Source of the DNA: an uncultured Bacillota bacterium
Lineage (GTDB): Bacteria; Bacillota_I; Bacilli_A; RFN20; CAG-288
Direction of reading: 5' to 3'
DNA length: 64,000 bases
NCBI GenBank assembly: GCA_949290645.1
Contig: CASESG010000002.1
Coordinates: 62,001-126,000 of the forward strand
Below the pieces are notes generated by a model, which was not told where the DNA came from, ran no database searches, and saw only the letters and a list, made by a program, of their open reading frames with translations. This document shows positions 5,396-19,264 of the stretch, piece by piece. The position numbers were made by a program, and so were the translations under genes. Position 1 is the first letter of the stretch. Every line of letters begins with the position of its first letter.

Positions 5396-6259
5396 CTATC
5401 CTTTCTCGGGAATCCGAAACTCGTTCGCCTCCGTCAGCCAGTCCTTCAGATCACAGACGGAGTCGATGACAAAACTCGCCTTCTCCTTGACCATCTTCGT
5501 GGCGTGACTCATGGCGAAAGAGAAAGGGAACAAGGAGAGCATCGCAATGTCGTTTCCGCTGTCTCCGCAGACGAGCACCTCGTCCTTCTGGATTCCTCTC
5601 TCCTGGCAATAGCGCAATAGGCCAGAGCCTTTGTCGACACCCTTTTTCATGATTTCCAGGGAAGTCCCTGAGACGACGACGGAGAAAGAATCTCCCGCCA
5701 ATTTCGACACTTCGGTAAAGGATTGCAAAGCCCTCTTCCTACCTTCATTTCCAAGTCCGAAGACGATCATCAGTTTGTCGATTGGATTGTTCCTCACCCA
5801 GTCCATCGCCTTGTGATAGCCGTGGATGACGCTCTCCCTGTAGGCCCCGTTGAGCTGGTTGGAAAGAAGGAGGGAGATGCGGGAGAAGGCACTGAGGTTC
5901 TCAAAGATGAGATGGAGACGGGTCGTGACGTCAAAGAAGAAATAGGCGTAGATGTCCTTTCTCGGGCGAAGCTTCTCGACAAGGTCGATGAGCTTATCGG
6001 AATCCATCGGACGTCTCTCGTCGATTCTTCCGCCCTGATAGAGATAGGCCCCGTTGCATCCCAGAAGGGGATAGGACTTGTGGGTGATCTTCTCCAGGTA
6101 GGGAAGGACTTTCGGATTCCTTCCCGAAACATAGAGGATGTCGATCTTCCTCTCGGACAGGAAACGGAGGAATTCCCGGTTGTTCTTGGGAACCGCATGG
6201 AGATGATCCTTGGGATAGAAGAGAGTCCCGTCGAGGTCGCTGGCCAGAAGCTTGATCAT
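5396..6259 (-). CDS. HAD superfamily hydrolase, Cof/YidA type
   Basis: A 287-residue phosphatase of the Cof subfamily, which acts on sugar phosphates or flavin/pyridoxal phosphates. The first HAD motif is SDLDGTLF near residue 8, the second is YVSGR, and the last is VCGDSGNDIAML with the family cap domain in between. The substrate is not determined. It overlaps the end of apbE by 4 bases (ATGA), so it is the second gene of an apbE operon. That could hint at a flavin-phosphate substrate, but this is inference from position only. Confidence 0.87.
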   Translation of the reverse strand: MIKLLASDLDGTLFYPKDHLHAVPKNNREFLRFLSERKIDILYVSGRNPKVLPYLEKITHKSYPLLGCNGAYLYQGGRIDERRPMDSDKLIDLVEKLRPRKDIYAYFFFDVTTRLHLIFENLSAFSRISLLLSNQLNGAYRESVIHGYHKAMDWVRNNPIDKLMIVFGLGNEGRKRALQSFTEVSKLAGDSFSVVVSGTSLEIMKKGVDKGSGLLRYCQERGIQKDEVLVCGDSGNDIAMLSLFPFSFAMSHATKMVKEKASFVIDSVCDLKDWLTEANEFRIPEKG

Positions 6260-7776
6260 GAGACCTCCACGATCCGGGCCAAGAGGTTGTCCGGATAGGG
6301 CGTCGAGTTGACGTCGGCGATCGTCTCCAGGGAGGAAAAGAGCCCCTTGGTCGCAAAATACGTCACGGAGAAATCCCTGTCCGCCTTGGTGACGCTCTCC
6401 TTGATGTCCTCGCTACGGATGTCCGTATAGTCCCCTTCATAACGAGTCCCGTCCTGAAGAAGGACGATCGGAAGGCCAAGGTCGGACAGGGGAGAAAGCT
6501 CCATCTGAGAGTAGCGATAGAGGGCGTTGTCGTCGTCTTTCTGGCTCTTTCGAAGGAAGAGAGCCTCGCTTTCGACTCCGTAGTGTTCGTCCAGATGCTC
6601 CTTCAGCTCTAAGGCTTCCTCCAAGGAGGAAGTCAGCATCAGGCTTGTCGTGTACATGTCGGCAAGGCCCGCATCCTCCAGAAGGACGGAGACCTGGTCG
6701 AAGTAGGAAGGCGAATAACCCGTCGAGGGATCGATGATGTGATCGCGTCGGACATAGTTCTCCTCTTCCTTCTTGTAGACATAGAAATGGTTCTCGGCAA
6801 AGCCCGAGGTCGAAAGGGAGAAAGGCCCCTTCCTCCGATAGGAGACCTCATAGGGATTCCTCTTGGAGACAAGAGGGGCTTCCTGGGAGACCGGGTTGGC
6901 GATGCGGATCGACCAGGGCTTCTCGTCCGGCCTATTCCCAATCGACTTGATGGAACTGGTTCCCGAGCTGACGAAGAGCGAGATGTCCGGATATTGAGAT
7001 TGGAAGTCCTCGCAGATCTCGTTTGTCGCAAAGCCCTTGGCGACACCGCTTAAGGAGATCTCGACCCCTTCGACTTCCTTTCCGTCCCGATCGAAGGGAC
7101 GGAAGACGACGCTCTTCTTCTCGTCGTCGAAGGAGAGAAGGTCCTTGCATTCCTCGTAGGTCGAAGGCGTGCGGAAAAGGGCTTCTTCCCTCTCCTTCTC
7201 GCCGATGTCGGAAGAGAAGGTCAAGCCGCCGTTAGCGAGGGAAAGAGAGCGGTCGAGAGCGGAGACATCGAGGTCGTCGAGCTTCTTCTCGTAGAGGTCG
7301 TTGAGCGCTCCCGTGAAGATGTTGAAGCGAAGCTTCCCCTCCTCGTCCTTGGTTTCCAGGGAGAAGAAGAAGCTCTCCTTGAGCAGGTCATAGAGAAAAG
7401 GATCGAGGACGATCTCCGTTCCTCTTGCCGTCTCGTTGACCGTCTTGAGGTTGTTGAAAGGGGCACCGTCGAGCGTGTAGTCGTAATGGCGGTCGCTGAG
7501 AGCGGAATAGTAGCTGATCCGGAACTGAAACTCTTCCTGAAGCTTCTCGATCTCCTGCTTGGTATAGGCTCCCTGATAGGAGTAGATCGAGCCTGAAATC
7601 AGCGTGTGGAAGGGACTGACCATCCCCATGTCTCCCGGAGGGGGAACGACACGCACCCTCCCCTTGGCGGAGAGGATGTAATCCGAATGCAGGCTGTCGA
7701 CCTGTTCCTTTTCCTGGGTGGAGCAGGAAGAGAGAAGAAGGACAGAGGAGAGCAAGAAAAGTGCGCTTTTTTTCAT
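6256..7776 (-). CDS. apbE: FAD:protein FMN transferase ApbE, lipoprotein
   Basis: Transfers FMN from FAD onto a threonine of target proteins such as RnfG/RnfD outside the membrane. A lipoprotein signal ends in LLSSCS with the lipid Cys at residue 18. Family motifs are SGVAKGF (243-249), SSGTSS, HIIDPSTG (346-353) and ADMYTT (372-377, metal site). At 506 residues it is much longer than the usual 320-350, with insertions in the N-terminal half and a C-terminal extension of about 80 residues. The ATG at 7776 is chosen because the ATG at 7785 lies inside a TATAAT. It probably serves the Rnf-like operon at 12.6-16.9 kb. Confidence 0.9.
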   Translation of the reverse strand: MKKSALFLLSSVLLLSSCSTQEKEQVDSLHSDYILSAKGRVRVVPPPGDMGMVSPFHTLISGSIYSYQGAYTKQEIEKLQEEFQFRISYYSALSDRHYDYTLDGAPFNNLKTVNETARGTEIVLDPFLYDLLKESFFFSLETKDEEGKLRFNIFTGALNDLYEKKLDDLDVSALDRSLSLANGGLTFSSDIGEKEREEALFRTPSTYEECKDLLSFDDEKKSVVFRPFDRDGKEVEGVEISLSGVAKGFATNEICEDFQSQYPDISLFVSSGTSSIKSIGNRPDEKPWSIRIANPVSQEAPLVSKRNPYEVSYRRKGPFSLSTSGFAENHFYVYKKEEENYVRRDHIIDPSTGYSPSYFDQVSVLLEDAGLADMYTTSLMLTSSLEEALELKEHLDEHYGVESEALFLRKSQKDDDNALYRYSQMELSPLSDLGLPIVLLQDGTRYEGDYTDIRSEDIKESVTKADRDFSVTYFATKGLFSSLETIADVNSTPYPDNLLARIVEVS

Positions 7777-7783
7777 CACGACC

Positions 7784-7789
7784 ATTATA
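7784..7789 (-). promoter_or_regulatory. -10 box of apbE, leaderless type
   Basis: TATAAT on the minus strand ends 7 bases before the ATG at 7776, the distance expected between a -10 box and the transcription start. No Shine-Dalgarno sequence is present. Confidence 0.55.
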
Positions 7790-11580: not shown

Positions 11581-12102
11581 TCACGCCTTTCGTCTCTTCT
11601 TCTCTTCGCTTCGATAGCTCTTGGGAAGCCTCTTTACCAAGAAATGGTCCAGGAAGGCGATGACAAGCCCCGTGACGATGGAAAGAGGGCCCAGAAACGC
11701 AAGATAGACAAAGATGAAAGGTGTCTGGAAGAAGAGCGCATAGGCGACAAGCTGTCCCACGGAATGGAACAGGGCCGAGAAGGCGGAAGTGGAGTAGATC
11801 GACCCCCGGACGAGGCGGGAGATCGCGATCGTGGCGATGATGGAAAGAAGAGAGCCACCCAAAGAGAGGAAGAAGGAGGGGCCGAAGCCGCTCGTGATCA
11901 AGGCCGAGAGGAAGACCCTTGCGATGACGACGAAGAGATAGGAGGGGATGCCGTAGTAATAGAGGGCGAAGAGGTTGACCAGGTTGCTCAAGCCGAGATG
12001 ATAGCCCGGGACCATCGGCATGGGGATGAAGCCCTCGACATAGTGGAGAGAGACAGAGAGCGCGACCAGAAGGGCCAAGGAGACCAGTCTTCTCGTCTTC
12101 AT
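11581..12102 (-). CDS. Gx transporter family membrane protein (EetB-like)
   Basis: A 173-residue, roughly five-helix membrane protein of the family long named heptaprenyl diphosphate synthase component I, now Gx transporter. It starts MKTRRLVSLALLVALSVSLH and contains PMVPGYHLGLSNL, the family signature loop. Such proteins often sit next to rnf genes and, paired with a NusG-II protein, are known to me as EetB of flavin-based electron transfer. The ATG at 12102 has GGAG 8 bases upstream and overlaps the previous stop; a GTG at 12111 is the alternative. It is the last gene of the rnf operon. Confidence 0.82.
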   Translation of the reverse strand: MKTRRLVSLALLVALSVSLHYVEGFIPMPMVPGYHLGLSNLVNLFALYYYGIPSYLFVVIARVFLSALITSGFGPSFFLSLGGSLLSIIATIAISRLVRGSIYSTSAFSALFHSVGQLVAYALFFQTPFIFVYLAFLGPLSIVTGLVIAFLDHFLVKRLPKSYRSEEKKRRKA

Positions 12103-12593
12103 ACGTCCCACTCCGGGAAATAGCTCGAGACGATCGTCGCCTGGAAACTGTTGGGAAGGCAGACAAGGGGAACATAGGGATCGTAGATCCTTCCGAGATA
12201 GGAGCAGACATGGCGGGGTGAATCCTCCTTGGTGATCTCGATCGAGCGGTCGCTGTAGAGGGTGATGGCGACTTCCTCGCCATAGAACTGGAAGTAGTTT
12301 CCCTCGCCCAAGAACATCTCCCCGTCCTCGCGCCGATAGACGATCTCGACCTTCCCCTGTTCCGGGAAGGAGATGGCGGTGTTGCAGGTGGGATCTTTCG
12401 GATCCCAGAGCAGGGTCGATCCATAGCGGATCTCGACGTGGACGTTCTCCAAAGAAGGGCGAAGGAGATAGGTGACGAAGACCATCACGAAGACCATCAA
12501 AAAAGACAGGAAGATGAGAAACGTATCCTTGACGGGGCGGTAGTGCATGTCGTCGTCGAAAAGGCCCCGCAGAAGTATCTTCTTCCTGTCCAC
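12099..12593 (-). CDS. NusG domain II membrane-anchored protein (EetA-like)
   Basis: A 164-residue protein with a cytosolic N-terminal tail, one membrane helix at about residues 23-44, and an outside beta-rich domain that resembles the NusG domain II family (PF07009). It is unrelated in role to the transcription factor NusG. It is coded by a GTG start with AAGGAA 5 bases upstream, 7 bases after rnfA. Two cysteines occur in the outside domain (NTAIS region and the HVCSYLG region), and a third near VCLPNS. Genes of this type accompany Gx-transporter and rnf genes; a link to extracytosolic electron transfer is family-level inference. Confidence 0.75.
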   Translation of the reverse strand: MDRKKILLRGLFDDDMHYRPVKDTFLIFLSFLMVFVMVFVTYLLRPSLENVHVEIRYGSTLLWDPKDPTCNTAISFPEQGKVEIVYRREDGEMFLGEGNYFQFYGEEVAITLYSDRSIEITKEDSPRHVCSYLGRIYDPYVPLVCLPNSFQATIVSSYFPEWDV

Positions 12594-12600
12594 GATTTCC

Positions 12601-13170
12601 TTAGAAGGTCAAAGAGACGAAGCAGAGGCACATCCCGGAGAGGGTGAGAAGGACAAGGGGCATGCCCTTGAAGCCCCTCATCGCGTTGCTGATCGAGATG
12701 CGCTCGTAGATCGGTTCGAAGATGACGAAAGTCAGGACATAGCCCAGAGGCAAACCGCAGGCATTGCTGAGGAGCAGAAGCGGGTCATCCGTCGTTCCGA
12801 CAAGGCTCAGGACCGACATGGCGATGGCAAAGAGGGAGGTGTTGAGAAGAAGGCCAAACCACTCTGGCTTAAACTCCGCCTTGGCCTTGGGAGAAAGGCA
12901 GATCAAGGCGTAGAAGATCGCAACGAGGACCGCAAGGACAAGGACGAAGAACAGAGGAGCGACATACTCCACCGCTGGATGAAGATTCTCGAGGAAGGTG
13001 AAACCATAGGCTGCGGCGGAGACGGCGATTCCCGCGATCAGATAGAAGAGGAGAAGCAGAGGACGGAACTTCTTCGCCTGATGATACTGATCGATCGCAT
13101 GCATGCCCTGGCCGGTGAGAATCAGATTGCCGGCAAAGAGGGCGACAAAGAACGCTGTCAAGTATTCCAT
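12601..13170 (-). CDS. rnfA: RnfA-like membrane subunit lacking cluster cysteines
   Basis: A 189-residue, six-helix protein of the RnfA/RnfE/NqrD/NqrE family, recognised from position in the operon, length, topology and the N-terminal MEYLTAFFVALFAGNLILTG. In canonical RnfA a Cys near residue 25 (GLCPF) and another in TTNC of the fourth helix bind a [2Fe-2S] cluster. Here the first region reads LTGQGMH and the second LLLNTSL (N110-T111), so both ligands are missing. The remaining cysteines (91, 138, 180, 182) are elsewhere. It starts 3 bases after rnfE. Confidence 0.8.
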   Translation of the reverse strand: MEYLTAFFVALFAGNLILTGQGMHAIDQYHQAKKFRPLLLLFYLIAGIAVSAAAYGFTFLENLHPAVEYVAPLFFVLVLAVLVAIFYALICLSPKAKAEFKPEWFGLLLNTSLFAIAMSVLSLVGTTDDPLLLLSNACGLPLGYVLTFVIFEPIYERISISNAMRGFKGMPLVLLTLSGMCLCFVSLTF

Positions 13171-13173
13171 GAT

Positions 13174-13863
13174 TTATCTCTGACCTCCTTCCATGGCCGG
13201 CATTCCCTTCTTCTTCCGGCCCTCGAAGGCACGGCAGATGGAGGCGTGGAAGCCAGCGACAAGGCCCGTCATCACAAAGCCACCGAAAGGATTGAGGATG
13301 AAGGGAAGAGTGAAGTCCATCACGTGGACGAAGAGCTGGCGCTCCGCATCCAAGGTCCAGACGAGCTCTCCCGTTCCCAGAAGTTCGCGGAAGAAGGCGA
13401 TGAGGGCCAAGGCGAGGATGAAGCCGATTCCCGAGCCCAGAGCGTCAAACAAGGCATGCCCGAAACCCAGTTCCGTCGCCTTCTCGCCCTTGACGAGGAC
13501 GGCCGAGGTCGTACTGACAAAGGGAATGAGGGAGACGATCAGGACGTTGGCAAAGCCGCCGACGCCCTCGATGGCGACGATCGGATAGTAGGCCGAAAGA
13601 AGCATCACGGCGATGCAACTTAGAGAAGCCGAGAGGATGGCCGCAAGGACATAGCTCAGGATCTTGCCGAGGAACTTGCGGAAGAGGGAACAGAAGAGCT
13701 CAACGACGACAAGGACGACAAGGACGATCGCTCCGAGATAGACGGAAGCTTGGACGTTCGTCGTGACAAGGACGGCCAGAGTCAATCCCAGGAAGAGGGA
13801 GAGGACCGGGTTCTTGAGGTAGATGCCATCCAGGAACGTCAGAAAGAGATTGCGTTTTTTCAT
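13174..13863 (-). CDS. rnfE: RnfE-like membrane subunit lacking cluster cysteines
   Basis: A 229-residue, six-helix subunit of the Rnf/Nqr family. The start matches RnfE well (LDGIYLKNPVLSLFLGL), as does LFDALGSGIGFILALALIAF with FFRELLGTG after it. The canonical cysteine in GLCP is threonine here (GLTLAV, T28), and the NCxIxGRAEAFA motif of helix 4 reads STTSAVLVKG (117-126). The two ligands for a membrane [2Fe-2S] cluster are therefore gone. Cysteines at 58 and 83 lie in other positions. Sits between rnfG (6-base gap) and rnfA (3-base gap). Confidence 0.87.
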   Translation of the reverse strand: MKKRNLFLTFLDGIYLKNPVLSLFLGLTLAVLVTTNVQASVYLGAIVLVVLVVVELFCSLFRKFLGKILSYVLAAILSASLSCIAVMLLSAYYPIVAIEGVGGFANVLIVSLIPFVSTTSAVLVKGEKATELGFGHALFDALGSGIGFILALALIAFFRELLGTGELVWTLDAERQLFVHVMDFTLPFILNPFGGFVMTGLVAGFHASICRAFEGRKKKGMPAMEGGQR

Positions 13864-13869
13864 GGTTCC

Positions 13870-14373
13870 TCACCTCCCTTGGGCATCCGTCAGGGCGGCC
13901 TTGATGGCTTTTGCCATGCCTTCGCTTGTCATGGTGACGCCGCTGATGACCTCAGTCGAATCCAGGGTGTAGCCGATGAAGAGCTCCGAAGCTTCATTCT
14001 GGGCCATCTCGACACCCATTCCGTCTTCGTCTCCGGCATCGAGGAAGAGATAGTTGGTGACCGTGCCGTCGACGACGCCGATTGCGAACTCCAAGGAGCC
14101 GCTTCTTCCCTTGGCGGAGACCAGATCATAGTAATATCCCGTCTCCTTGTCAGAAGTCTCGACCTCGTAGCAGGAGCGGATGAATTCCTTGTCGAAATCC
14201 TGGACAGGAGTGGCGGAAACATAGTCGGGGAAGATCGAGGCGACCGTCGCGGGGATGGCCGGCCTGTTCTCTTCCATCATCTTGTGAACGCCATAGTAGC
14301 AGCCGACGACACCGCCGATGCAGCAGGCCGTCGTCAGGATGGCGATCAACGTCTTTCCCAATGCTTTGCTCAT
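13870..14373 (-). CDS. rnfG: RnfG flavoprotein subunit
   Basis: A 167-residue membrane-anchored protein with one N-terminal helix (about residues 7-29) and an outside FMN-binding domain. The covalent flavin site is SGVTMTS at 144-150, a variant of the SGATxTS motif in which ApbE attaches FMN to the threonine. It should carry electrons outside the membrane between other Rnf subunits. Shorter than most RnfG proteins (about 190-210). One base separates it from rnfD. Confidence 0.88.
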   Translation of the reverse strand: MSKALGKTLIAILTTACCIGGVVGCYYGVHKMMEENRPAIPATVASIFPDYVSATPVQDFDKEFIRSCYEVETSDKETGYYYDLVSAKGRSGSLEFAIGVVDGTVTNYLFLDAGDEDGMGVEMAQNEASELFIGYTLDSTEVISGVTMTSEGMAKAIKAALTDAQGR

Positions 14374-14374
14374 G

Positions 14375-15556
14375 TCAGAAGACCTCCTTGACAGTGGTCA
14401 GAAGGGCCGGCGACTTGGAAAAATCGAATTCTCCCGTCATGCCGTATCCGACACCGACCGCGAAAACACCAGCCAGGCAGATCAGGATGGCAAGAGACGG
14501 CGCCCAGTTGTGGAGCGTCCTTCCCGTCAGGCACTTGTCGATGAGCGGGGTGAGGAGATTCATGATGAGGATTGAGTAAGCGACACCTTCCGCCGAATTG
14601 GTATACAGGCGGATGACCATCGTCAAGATCGCGCTCATGAGGGCGAAGATGATCCTGCCGGACTTGCTTGTCGGCGAGGTCACGGGATCGGTGAGGCAGA
14701 AGACGCCACCGAAGAGGATGCCGCCCATCATCACGCTCCTGGCCGCAAGTTCGAAGCTCTGGCGAGCGGTCTCACCTGCCAGGACGAACATCACGGCATA
14801 GCTGAAGAAGAGCGAGGCGCAATAGAAGAAAGGAACGCGCCAGTCGATAATTCCGCGGACGATGAGATAGAGGCCGAGGATGACGATGATGAGAGCGAAA
14901 GTCTCGCCCAAGGTTCCATAGTAATTTCCCAGGACCATGTTCCAGAAGGAGATTCCTTCCGTGGCCATGAAGGAGCCGCCGTTGACCAGTCCCGGAATCG
15001 TCGCACCGGCGTTGATGACCGTGGAATAGCCTTCCGGTGCGACATTGCCGAGGTAGGTCGTCATGTGCGAGGCGAAGGCGAGCTGGGCGAAAAGACGTCC
15101 GAAGATGGCCGGGTTGAGGATGTTGGAGCCAAAGCCGCCGAAGACCAGCTTTCCGACGAAGACGGAGAGGAAGGAAGTCAGGGCGATCTCCCACCATTCC
15201 ATGCCGATCGGAAGGATGAGGACGAGAATCAATCCCGTCACGAAGGAATAGGATCTCAGGACTTTCTTCAGATAGCGGCCGACCGGATTGCCGTCCTTGT
15301 CCTTCTTGAAGAGATAGGGGAAGTACCAGATGAGGTCGGCGATCATCGCAAATCCGACGCCCATCGCGCCGTTTTGCAAAGCCATCAAACCATAGGTGAC
15401 GTTGCTGAAGGTGTCGGAAGGGCCGCCCTTGACGAAGTAGAAGATCACGGCACAGGCATAGAGGATGACAAGAGTGACGAAGAACTCCACCATCATCCGG
15501 GAGGTCTTGCTCTTGGAACGCAGATGCGGTCCGTTCTCAAAGACAAGGGTCTTCAT
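14375..15556 (-). CDS. rnfD: RnfD membrane flavoprotein subunit
   Basis: A 393-residue membrane protein of the RnfD/NqrB family, with about ten helices. Conserved features include FGGFGSNILNPAIFGRLF, GETFALIIVILGLYLI, TDPVTSPTSKSGR and EGVAYSILIMN. The region corresponding to the covalent FMN threonine (SGATPL type) reads NAGATIPG, so flavin attachment is plausible but the motif is not standard. It follows rnfC with one base between. Expected role: membrane flavin relay coupled to Na+ or H+ transport. Confidence 0.92.
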   Translation of the reverse strand: MKTLVFENGPHLRSKSKTSRMMVEFFVTLVILYACAVIFYFVKGGPSDTFSNVTYGLMALQNGAMGVGFAMIADLIWYFPYLFKKDKDGNPVGRYLKKVLRSYSFVTGLILVLILPIGMEWWEIALTSFLSVFVGKLVFGGFGSNILNPAIFGRLFAQLAFASHMTTYLGNVAPEGYSTVINAGATIPGLVNGGSFMATEGISFWNMVLGNYYGTLGETFALIIVILGLYLIVRGIIDWRVPFFYCASLFFSYAVMFVLAGETARQSFELAARSVMMGGILFGGVFCLTDPVTSPTSKSGRIIFALMSAILTMVIRLYTNSAEGVAYSILIMNLLTPLIDKCLTGRTLHNWAPSLAILICLAGVFAVGVGYGMTGEFDFSKSPALLTTVKEVF

Positions 15557-15557
15557 C

Positions 15558-16868
15558 TCATTTCGCTCCTTTCTGCTGTGGCTGCTTCAGAAGCAAAGCC
15601 TTGGCTTTCTGGACATTGTTGGAGACATCGATCTTGCTCGGGCAGACGTAGGAGCAGAGACCGCAGTTGATGCAGAGCGCGGCCTTGAGCTTGAGAAGGC
15701 GGTCGATGTTGTTGGCCTTGAGGGCCATCTGGATCTGGACAGGCTGCAGTCCCATCGGGCAGTTGTCGATGCACTTTCCGCAGTGCCAGCAGGGTTCGCT
15801 CTCCACCTTCGTGGGACGGAAGAGCAAGACGCCGTTGGCCTGAAGCGGAAGGACATAGTCGGATTCGTGGCAAGTGCCGCACATCGGGCCTCCCGAGATC
15901 AGCTTGAACTGGCGGATCGTGGGGCCGCCGGCGAAGTTGATGAGGTCGCTTGCCAGAGTCCCGGCCGGAGCCAGGACATCCTTGGGGCAATTCACCTCTC
16001 CGCTGACGGTGATGCAGCGATCGGCGACCACTTCCCCGAAGACGAAGCGACGGGCCAGGGCCATGACGGTATAGAGGTTGTTGACGATGGCGCCGACTTC
16101 GATCGGCAGGGCCTGGTATTCCTTGTGAAGGATGGCCCGGACCAGGCTTCTCTCATATCCCATCGGATAGCGATCGGGAAGGATCTTGAGAGCGACCGGG
16201 TAGTTCTTGTTCTCCTTTCGGGAAAGCTCCTTGCGGACAGCATCGATCAAGGCCTCTCTTCCGCGTTTGACGGCGATGTAGATCTTCTTGGCACCGGTCA
16301 GGCGAAGGAGATAGGGAATGGCCAGGAAGACCTCCGACATGTTCATCCGACCGTAGTTGTAGTCCGTGGTCAGATACGGCTCGCATTCGATGGCGTTGAC
16401 GATGATCGCCTCGACCGGCTTTCCGGAGTTGTACTTCCGGTACGTCGGGAAACCCGCTCCGCCGAAGCCGACGGCGCCGGAATCCTTGATGGCGGCGAGA
16501 ATCTCTTCCTTGGAACAATGACTGGCGTCAGGAAGAGCAGGCCGACGAATCCACTGGCTTCTCCTGTCGTTGGCAATCTCCAGGCATTCGCGCACCTTGC
16601 CGTCGGCCATCATCATGTACTTGTGCGACACGATCTGGCCCGAGACGGACGAATAGGTGGGAAAATCGTCGACACCGGTTCCCAAAAGGGTGCCCTTGAA
16701 GACCAACGTCCCGACCGGGAGGAGGCCTTTCAAAGGATTGTTGCGGTTATCGACAGCCGGGATGTAGACGAAATCGGGTTGGAACACCTCGTACGGGTGG
16801 CCCTCGGTCGCTTCCTTATGTTCCGGGATTGGAAGCGAGAGAGCCGTTTTCAAAAAATGTAGACCCAT
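15558..16868 (-). CDS. rnfC: RnfC NADH/FMN and [4Fe-4S] subunit
   Basis: The cytosolic subunit that exchanges electrons with NAD(H). The 436-residue protein has the nucleotide/FMN region with GFGGAGFPTYRKY and NAIECEPYLT, followed by a SLBB-type region. Two complete [4Fe-4S] motifs follow: C360-C363-C366-C370 and C399-C402-C405-C409. It is the first gene of the operon rnfCDGEA plus the NusG-II and Gx genes. GAGG lies about 10 bases before the ATG, and TATAAT at 16890-16895 implies a very short leader. Confidence 0.95.
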   Translation of the reverse strand: MGLHFLKTALSLPIPEHKEATEGHPYEVFQPDFVYIPAVDNRNNPLKGLLPVGTLVFKGTLLGTGVDDFPTYSSVSGQIVSHKYMMMADGKVRECLEIANDRRSQWIRRPALPDASHCSKEEILAAIKDSGAVGFGGAGFPTYRKYNSGKPVEAIIVNAIECEPYLTTDYNYGRMNMSEVFLAIPYLLRLTGAKKIYIAVKRGREALIDAVRKELSRKENKNYPVALKILPDRYPMGYERSLVRAILHKEYQALPIEVGAIVNNLYTVMALARRFVFGEVVADRCITVSGEVNCPKDVLAPAGTLASDLINFAGGPTIRQFKLISGGPMCGTCHESDYVLPLQANGVLLFRPTKVESEPCWHCGKCIDNCPMGLQPVQIQMALKANNIDRLLKLKAALCINCGLCSYVCPSKIDVSNNVQKAKALLLKQPQQKGAK

Positions 16869-18639: not shown

Positions 18640-18912
18640 TCACAGGGGAAGGCCATAGGGATTGAGATAGACGACTTTCCGGACTTCAGGAAGCTTTTCC
18701 TGGAAGAGGGCGGTGACATCGCCCAGGTCCTGTCCGGCCAAGGCGCATCCGACGCAAGCGCCCGTGACCGTGATGAACAGGGTCTCTTCCCGAAAGTCCT
18801 TGACGGCGAGATTGCTCCCGTCCTTCTGGAAGAAGGGACGGACTTCCGAGAGCAGGCGCTCGGCTTTCTGGAGGATCTGGAATTCCTCCCTACTTCGATT
18901 GGCCGTCTCCAC
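18640..18912 (-). CDS. Nfu-type iron-sulfur scaffold domain protein, second copy
   Basis: A 90-residue protein consisting almost only of a NifU C-terminal (Nfu) domain, with the cluster-binding CVGC motif in TVTGACVGCALAGQDL. Nfu domains carry or deliver Fe-S clusters. The proposed GTG start at 18912 lies 23 bases inside the preceding Nfu gene, with AGAGGAAGAG upstream; no ATG is available in frame between the domain and that region. It is a diverged tandem duplicate of its neighbour. Confidence 0.8.
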   Translation of the reverse strand: METANRSREEFQILQKAERLLSEVRPFFQKDGSNLAVKDFREETLFITVTGACVGCALAGQDLGDVTALFQEKLPEVRKVVYLNPYGLPL

Positions 18913-19249
18913 CTTTGTTCTCTTCCTCCTGTTTCTTGAGGTCTTCCTCTGCCAGCTGCTGTTCGGCAAGGCGGCGCAGAAGGTCATCGAAAGAGGGCTC
19001 GGGAGGAGCGATAAGCTCCACCTTCTTGACCTCAGGAACCTCGTCCAGGACCATCACCTCGACCGATTCCGAAACGTCGGTCGATGCCATGGCACAGCCT
19101 GCGCAGGCGCCAATCATGTCGACATAGCAGATTCCGGTCTGCTCATCATAGCGATCCAGGCGAATGTCTCCTCCCTCCCTCTGCAAGAAAGGACGAAGCT
19201 TGTCCAGGACCGTCTCGATCTTTTCTTCAATCGTTGGATTCATTTTCAT
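18890..19249 (-). CDS. Nfu-type iron-sulfur scaffold domain protein
   Basis: A 119-residue protein with an Nfu domain carrying CAGC (DMIGACAGCAMASTDV) and a charged C-terminal tail of about 35 residues rich in Glu, Lys and Gln. It probably passes Fe-S clusters to clients; RnfC and PflA in this window are possible ones. Three starts are possible: GTG 19255, ATG 19249, ATG 19243. None has a Shine-Dalgarno sequence, and a TATAAT ends 9 bases before the GTG, so translation may be leaderless or nearly so. I list the middle start. Confidence 0.85.
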   Translation of the reverse strand: MKMNPTIEEKIETVLDKLRPFLQREGGDIRLDRYDEQTGICYVDMIGACAGCAMASTDVSESVEVMVLDEVPEVKKVELIAPPEPSFDDLLRRLAEQQLAEEDLKKQEEENKGGDGQSK

Positions 19250-19264
19250 TTTCACCGGAAAAAG

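Follow-up and report, generated by a model that had tools for sequence, protein, structure and literature searches.

An rnf operon without rnfB and without the RnfA/RnfE cluster cysteines in an uncultured Bacillota bacterium

Introduction

In an ordinary Rnf complex, electrons pass from ferredoxin through RnfB to the [2Fe-2S] cluster of RnfA and RnfE (A/E), on to RnfG outside, and then through RnfD and RnfC to NAD+. In Rnf and Nqr alike, ion pumping is held to be gated by the A/E cluster. These complexes have two transmembrane paths, one leading out via the A/E cluster to RnfG and the other back via RnfD (PMC8238504; PMC12174285), and alternating access of A/E is considered to be driven by whether the cluster is reduced (PMC12174285).

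The window analysed here, a stretch of 64,000 nucleotides from an uncultured Bacillota bacterium, carries an rnf operon that has neither rnfB nor the four cysteines that bind this cluster. This raises the question of whether the operon encodes a decaying complex or a remodelled one, and which path electrons might still take through it. No description of an RnfB-less or cluster-less Rnf was found in the open-access literature searched, which leaves out most subscription journals. With a natural complex that has A/E without the cluster, one can test directly which roles A/E have beyond electron carrying, whether the C-D-G half works alone and whether pumping depends on the cluster. Annotation that relies on rnfB, or on the mere presence of rnf, misjudges ferredoxin-based energy conservation in such genomes.

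The Operon and Its Relatives

The operon runs on the minus strand from 16868 to 11581 in the order rnfC-rnfD-rnfG-rnfE-rnfA-NusG_II-Gx, with apbE farther along at 7785-6256. RnfC, RnfD, RnfG, RnfE and RnfA are all encoded in this single operon, which marks it as Rnf by subunit content. The features are:

15558-16868, minus strand: rnfC, NADH/FMN subunit (TIGR01945, 275.8 bits over cut-off; Complex1_51K, SLBB and Fer4 domains)
15756-15791, minus strand: RnfC [4Fe-4S] motif 1, CWHCGKCIDNCP
15639-15674, minus strand: RnfC [4Fe-4S] motif 2, CINCGLCSYVCP
14375-15556, minus strand: rnfD, membrane flavoprotein (PF03116, 224 bits)
14999-15001, minus strand: codon of T186 in the RnfD flavinylation-type motif GATIPG
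13870-14373, minus strand: rnfG, extracytoplasmic FMN-binding subunit (PF04205, 28.1 bits over cut-off)
13933-13935, minus strand: codon of T147 in the RnfG flavinylation-type motif SGVTMT
13174-13863, minus strand: rnfE without either [2Fe-2S] cysteine (PF02508, 77.4 bits; alignments; model TM-score)
13780-13782 and 13504-13506, minus strand: replaced RnfE ligands T28 and S120
12601-13170, minus strand: rnfA without either [2Fe-2S] cysteine (phmmer match to 9eri_A, 5.4e-5; alignments; model TM-score)
13099-13101 and 12835-12837, minus strand: replaced RnfA ligands H24 and S112
12099-12593, minus strand: NusG domain II protein (PF07009, 29.3 bits, just under the cut-off of 29.6; synteny)
11581-12111, minus strand: Gx / Hpre_diP_synt_I membrane protein, a conserved rnf neighbour (PF07456, 103 bits; synteny)
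6256-7785, minus strand: apbE, FAD:protein FMN transferase lipoprotein (PF02424, 83.5 bits)

The reading frames of rnfE (229 aa) and rnfA (189 aa) are open and lie in the same frame, 3 nt apart. RnfA is strongly diverged and falls under the Pfam cut-off for PF02508, yet it matches A. woodii RnfA in both sequence and predicted fold, and RnfE likewise matches RnfE chains. The models, which are of single chains only and of moderate confidence (pLDDT 76-79), reach TM-scores of 0.72 to 9eri_A for RnfA and 0.73 to 8ahx_E for RnfE, and both show the Rnf fold.

Upstream of the operon, two adjacent small genes (18640-18987 and 18890-19255, minus strand) were assigned by eye as resembling NifU C-terminal (Nfu-type) Fe-S carriers. 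Such a pair also lies upstream of rnf in G014 and G016.

Relatives were sought with a family-level search and an order-level profile search. The same kind of operon, without the cysteines and without rnfB, is present in eight genomes, that is, in seven besides the window assembly (G000). Five of these operons belong to the genus of the window (G017, G015, G014, G016 and G007:C37) and two to another family of the same order (G239:C6 and G240:C28). The class- and phylum-wide profile search gave no further close members beyond these eight, and a search of genome contigs with RnfE returned only a single distant locus. G007, G239 and G240 each carry, in addition, a second, ordinary rnf operon with the four cysteines; the two kinds can therefore coexist in one cell line.

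Loss of the Cluster Ligands

The ligand columns were set by alignment with 19 cysteine-intact relatives and with solved Rnf/Nqr chains, using C25/C113 of A. woodii RnfA and C25/C108 of its RnfE (numbered on the 9eri chains) as reference. All four [2Fe-2S] ligands are replaced in the window, by T28 and S120 in RnfE and by H24 and S112 in RnfA. For the last RnfA site, the profile placement shifts by one residue (T111 or S112) but never meets a cysteine.

The sites are likewise free of cysteine in all of the seven to eight readable operons of this kind, the RnfA of G007 being unread as its contig ends within rnfE. The first RnfE site is threonine in 8/8 and the second is serine or phenylalanine; the first RnfA site reads H/S/N/N/N/R/R and the second is serine or alanine. 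A column check found no invariant cysteine or histidine at or near the ligand sites among these operons. Among columns with a residue, the sole invariant His/Cys column in either protein is RnfE H206, which sits in the last helix near the C-terminus, outside the cluster half-helices.

A preliminary description, made from the sequence alone, had claimed that four motif replacements (GLTLAV and STTSAVLVKG in RnfE, LTGQGMH and LLLNTSL in RnfA) removed the four cluster cysteines together from genes that are otherwise intact. The alignments bear out all four replacements, the joint loss holds in full, and the rnfE and rnfA frames are indeed open. Of the checks it named, alignment with solved Rnf/Nqr subunits placed no cysteine at the four ligand columns, and close relatives showed the same ligand loss to be fixed in eight operons of one clade.

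Substitute ligands, the case that would have refuted that description, were considered and rejected. The candidates RnfA C91 and C138 and RnfE C58 and C83 are unconserved even within the cysteine-less clade, where their columns read CCQIICC, CCFIIII, CCVIVLVV and CCVTTTTT, respectively.

Absence of rnfB

The NusG_II gene, a conserved rnf neighbour in the class, lies directly 3′ of rnfA, at the usual position of rnfB. In sister-genus operons of the same synteny, rnfA is followed by a short open reading frame (ORF) with a cysteine-rich tail, then by rnfB and only after that by the NusG_II gene. In the cysteine-less operons this slot is only a few bases wide.

No rnfB was found in the window operon, nor in the window assembly (85% complete) by a whole-assembly PF04060 search, and the same search of the whole assemblies of G017, G015, G014 and G016 was also negative. 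The only rnfB of G007 and of G239 belongs to the separate cysteine-intact operon, and the intact copy of G240 is cut by the contig end. Thus rnfB is missing from every cysteine-less genome unless a second, intact rnf operon is also present. The genomes are MAGs of 68-92% completeness; a distant rnfB could escape notice in one of them, but hardly in all.

The small ORF encodes one membrane helix and a cysteine-rich tail (e.g. DNCPKVEVGCKGCMLNC; an example lies in the 6663-7287 region of L029), and at least 94 of the 115 intact loci carry it, placed between rnfA and rnfB. It has no match to NqrM (PF04400) and no Pfam family, giving only a sub-threshold FeoB_associated match. On its NqrM-like architecture, it is possible that the product is a maturation factor for the A/E cluster. 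The ORF is missing in the window clade. G268 (described below) keeps it although rnfB is absent there, and loss of the ORF therefore does not strictly accompany loss of the ligands.

The RnfB of ordinary operons in the class is nearly always a mini form consisting of a membrane helix and PF04060 only (median 111 aa, mostly 4-5 cysteines; census loci L022-L115 and L132-L211). The exceptions among 115 loci are full-length, many-cysteine proteins in L151 (266 aa) and L156 (268 aa) and one with a doubled FeS domain in L169 (184 aa).

Census and Phylogeny

The four ligand columns were read from profile alignments for about 137 rnf loci across the class. All 122 of the 122 complete rnfB-bearing loci keep all four cysteines, and on that count the loss in the window is no matter of chance. 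Two loci have four cysteines without rnfB (L088 and L076), and both are truncated at the end of a contig or locus; in two rnfB-bearing loci, RnfE was incompletely read (L167 and L176). Every locus truly without rnfB has lost ligands, namely the eight window-type operons, G265/G266 and G365. These tallies count loci and not independent events.

The degree of loss differs among the loci outside the window type. In G265 and G266, the second RnfA site is lost and three of four cysteines are left. The genus of G265 supplied two more genomes, G267 and G268. G267 is in the same state as G265. G268 retains none of the four (F/G at the RnfE sites, T/A at the RnfA sites). G365 holds an rnfC-rnfD-rnfA remnant (L212, 8572-11580, minus strand) in which the first RnfA site is lost. 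PF04060 was not found in the whole assemblies of G265-G268 and G365. The RnfD of the G365 remnant has no clear GAT motif, and rnfE, rnfG and rnfB are absent there.

In the RnfC+RnfD tree, the eight window-type operons form one clade (bootstrap 100), sister to G003, which has intact cysteines, and nested among cysteine-intact, rnfB-bearing operons. The joint loss in these eight operons is one evolutionary event, not eight. G265-G268 fall in a distant part of the tree, and with G365 this makes no fewer than three joint losses of rnfB and ligands. From the partial state of G265-G267 it may be inferred that rnfB was lost first and the ligands after.

Selection on RnfA and RnfE

Pairwise dN/dS values of the cysteine-less proteins are 0.166/0.068/0.108 for A and 0.142/0.069/0.061 for E. 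This range (0.06-0.17) lies within that of rnfC and rnfD (0.04-0.17), which indicates purifying selection; dS is high in several pairs and the ratios are rough. Pseudogene decay was ruled out on these values. Between G239 and G240, the cysteine-less A/E are 82/84% identical as against 94/94% for the cysteine-intact A/E of the same two genomes, and since the former are more diverged, some constraint has been lifted on them. The cysteine-less A/E are not decaying, though they are held less tightly than the intact copies.

The preliminary description had also argued that the correlated loss and the missing RnfB point to an electron path that was remodelled rather than to random decay. This is supported by the fixation of the loss in eight operons, purifying selection on A/E, the absences of rnfB and a second independent lineage. 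Its term "remodelled" can be sharpened: one of two transmembrane legs has been removed and the other kept.

Retained Leg and Proposed Electron Path

RnfC, RnfD and RnfG, together with ApbE, remain and still carry their cofactor motifs. The window RnfC retains GFGGAGFP and ECEPY, and both 4Fe-4S motifs and the FMN/NADH motifs are kept in 8/8 cysteine-less operons. The RnfD flavin column reads GAT/GAS/GSS in 8/8, and the [S/A/T]G[V/T/A]T motif of RnfG is kept, imperfectly in G007 (AGVTGD, GGVTVM). Covalent FMN on RnfD and RnfG is inferred from these motifs and the apbE gene; there are no data on flavinylation itself.

A genome search found ApbE in 6/8 cysteine-less genomes (G000, where only one apbE was found, G017, G015, G014, G016 and G239). 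It did not find ApbE in G007 and G240, nor in any of four rnf-free congeners (G004, G008, G012 and G013). An [FeFe] hydrogenase is present in 15/15 congeners searched, so ferredoxin can be reoxidised in the genus without Rnf.

In G007, G239 and G240, the gene directly before rnfC encodes a lipoprotein (about 520 aa) that bears two motifs of TGAT/SGAT type. A homologue adjoins apbE in G010, on a contig without rnf. The loci are:

L026, 768-2324, plus strand: two-TGAT lipoprotein
L085, 12182-13795, minus strand: two-TGAT lipoprotein
L086, 3310-4971, plus strand: two-TGAT lipoprotein
L124, 6180-7706, minus strand: two-TGAT lipoprotein

The protein has no Pfam match, and it is therefore called flavinylated on motif and neighbourhood alone. 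No homologue was found in the window genome, G017, G015, G014 or G016, and no extra redox gene common to the cysteine-less operons was found.

The loss of the RnfB-A/E leg is well supported and shown by sequence. The reading favoured here, with moderate confidence, is that the remaining complex works as a conduit outward from NADH through RnfC and RnfD to RnfG, which would be the simplest machine that the retained parts could form. NADH would reduce RnfC, whose two [4Fe-4S] clusters would hand the electrons to the flavins of RnfD. From there they would cross the membrane to the FMN bound covalently to RnfG and finally reach an extracytoplasmic acceptor, which in G007, G239 and G240 may be the two-TGAT lipoprotein. 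The outward direction and the acceptor are inferred and not shown. RnfA and RnfE, without a cofactor, may be retained as a scaffold for D and G. Such a complex would not be expected to oxidise ferredoxin and would probably not pump Na+ by a cluster-gated switch, its activity being untested; since alternating access of A/E is considered to depend on cluster reduction, loss of the cluster should uncouple that pumping step.

A bolder reading is that Rnf repeatedly became a ferredoxin-independent, cluster-free, one-leg NADH exporter; that rnfB was lost first and the A/E ligands thereafter; and that the A/E dimer, by then cofactor-free, stayed because it is needed by D and G or for residual ion movement. 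The sequence of states would run from intact operons through G265-G267 (no rnfB, three of four cysteines) to G268 and the window clade (none of four). Taken jointly, these propositions may as readily prove wrong as right.

Alternative Explanations

The first alternative, considered unlikely, is that A/E still carry an electron by a different cofactor or different ligands, with an unknown donor in place of RnfB. In its favour, both A and E persist under constraint, T28 of RnfE is unchanged in 8/8, and H206 offers one invariant histidine. Against this, the first RnfA site varies (H/S/N/N/N/R/R) as does the second RnfE site (S/F), no further Cys/His column is conserved, H206 lies outside the cluster half-helices, and the operons share no extra redox gene.

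It is also improbable that RnfA and RnfE are only assembly and ion-path subunits of a complex that runs inward, from an external reductant through RnfG, RnfD and RnfC to NAD+. The C-D-G order is retained, and RnfG to RnfD to RnfC is the physiological direction in forward Rnf (PMC12174285). However, no extracytoplasmic reductant is known to us for such a fermenter, and a hydrogenase-bearing genus is expected, by inference, to need an electron outlet.

A dying complex, in which RnfB was lost and the remainder is drifting, is very unlikely. The lower identity of the cysteine-less A/E in G239/G240 (82/84% versus 94/94%) and the partial ligand loss in G265-G267 speak for it, but A/E dN/dS (0.06-0.17) is similar to that of rnfC and rnfD, every gene is open in deeply diverged genomes and ApbE is kept.

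That RnfB is encoded elsewhere or was missed, or that the proteins are misassembled or misaligned, is all but excluded: the window genome is a MAG of 85% completeness, but eight independent assemblies agree, PF04060 is negative in the five cysteine-less genomes without a second rnf operon, and the rnfA-NusG_II slot is a few bases wide whereas intact operons hold the small ORF and rnfB there.

Comparison with Known Systems

The operon resembles the Rnf complexes RnfABCDGE of A. woodii (9eri), Clostridium tetanomorphum (7zc6) and Azotobacter vinelandii (8ahx) in its CDGEA subunits and their order, in the A/E fold and in the cofactor motifs of RnfC, RnfD and RnfG. It differs in that RnfB is absent and all four A/E [2Fe-2S] cysteines are replaced, and so the ferredoxin-side leg is missing. 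With Na+-NQR (NqrABCDEF) it has the A/E-D-G core and flavinylation-type motifs in common; it differs in that the operon has no NqrF-like gene and no A/E (NqrE/D) cluster, and RnfC (TIGR01945) replaces NqrA. G265-G267 also carry an nqr-like BCDEF operon with intact cysteines and an NqrF-like last gene (L227, 3244-7206, minus; L228, 2981-6943, plus; L229, 5053-8976, plus), and no nqrA was seen adjoining it.

Flavin-based extracellular electron transfer of the cAD1 precursor/PplA type (PMC7074142) is similar in its ApbE and Hpre_diP_synt_I-type gene. It also has a two-site flavinylated lipoprotein, to which that of three cysteine-less relatives is similar; this likeness is limited, as the latter matches no Pfam family and the window genome gave no homologue. 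Electrons enter that system via Ndh2 and quinone, whereas entry into the cysteine-less Rnf would be via RnfC-RnfD-RnfG.

The two-leg layout and unidirectional partial systems were argued in PMC8238504. The NQR/RNF-like partial systems are alike in having one transmembrane leg, which takes electrons from NAD(P)H to an FMN protein outside the cytoplasm and is presumed to be unidirectional. They consist of RnfD/NqrB fused to the NAD-binding domain of NqrF (PF00175), whereas the window RnfD is unfused, a single PF03116 domain of 393 aa, and does not fall under that definition. The window further differs in that electrons would enter on the cytoplasmic side at RnfC, with its two 4Fe-4S motifs, and that cofactor-free RnfA and RnfE are still encoded. 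In that survey (Meheust et al. 2021), an operon was counted as RNF only with rnfB, so the rnfB-less kind would have gone uncounted.

Long C-terminal extensions are found in many RnfD proteins of the class (proteins of up to 996 aa), some with extra GAT-type motifs (e.g. L034, 9477-12464, minus; L213, 3453-5408, plus; L031, 4761-6623, plus). These extra parts could possibly be added flavin domains.
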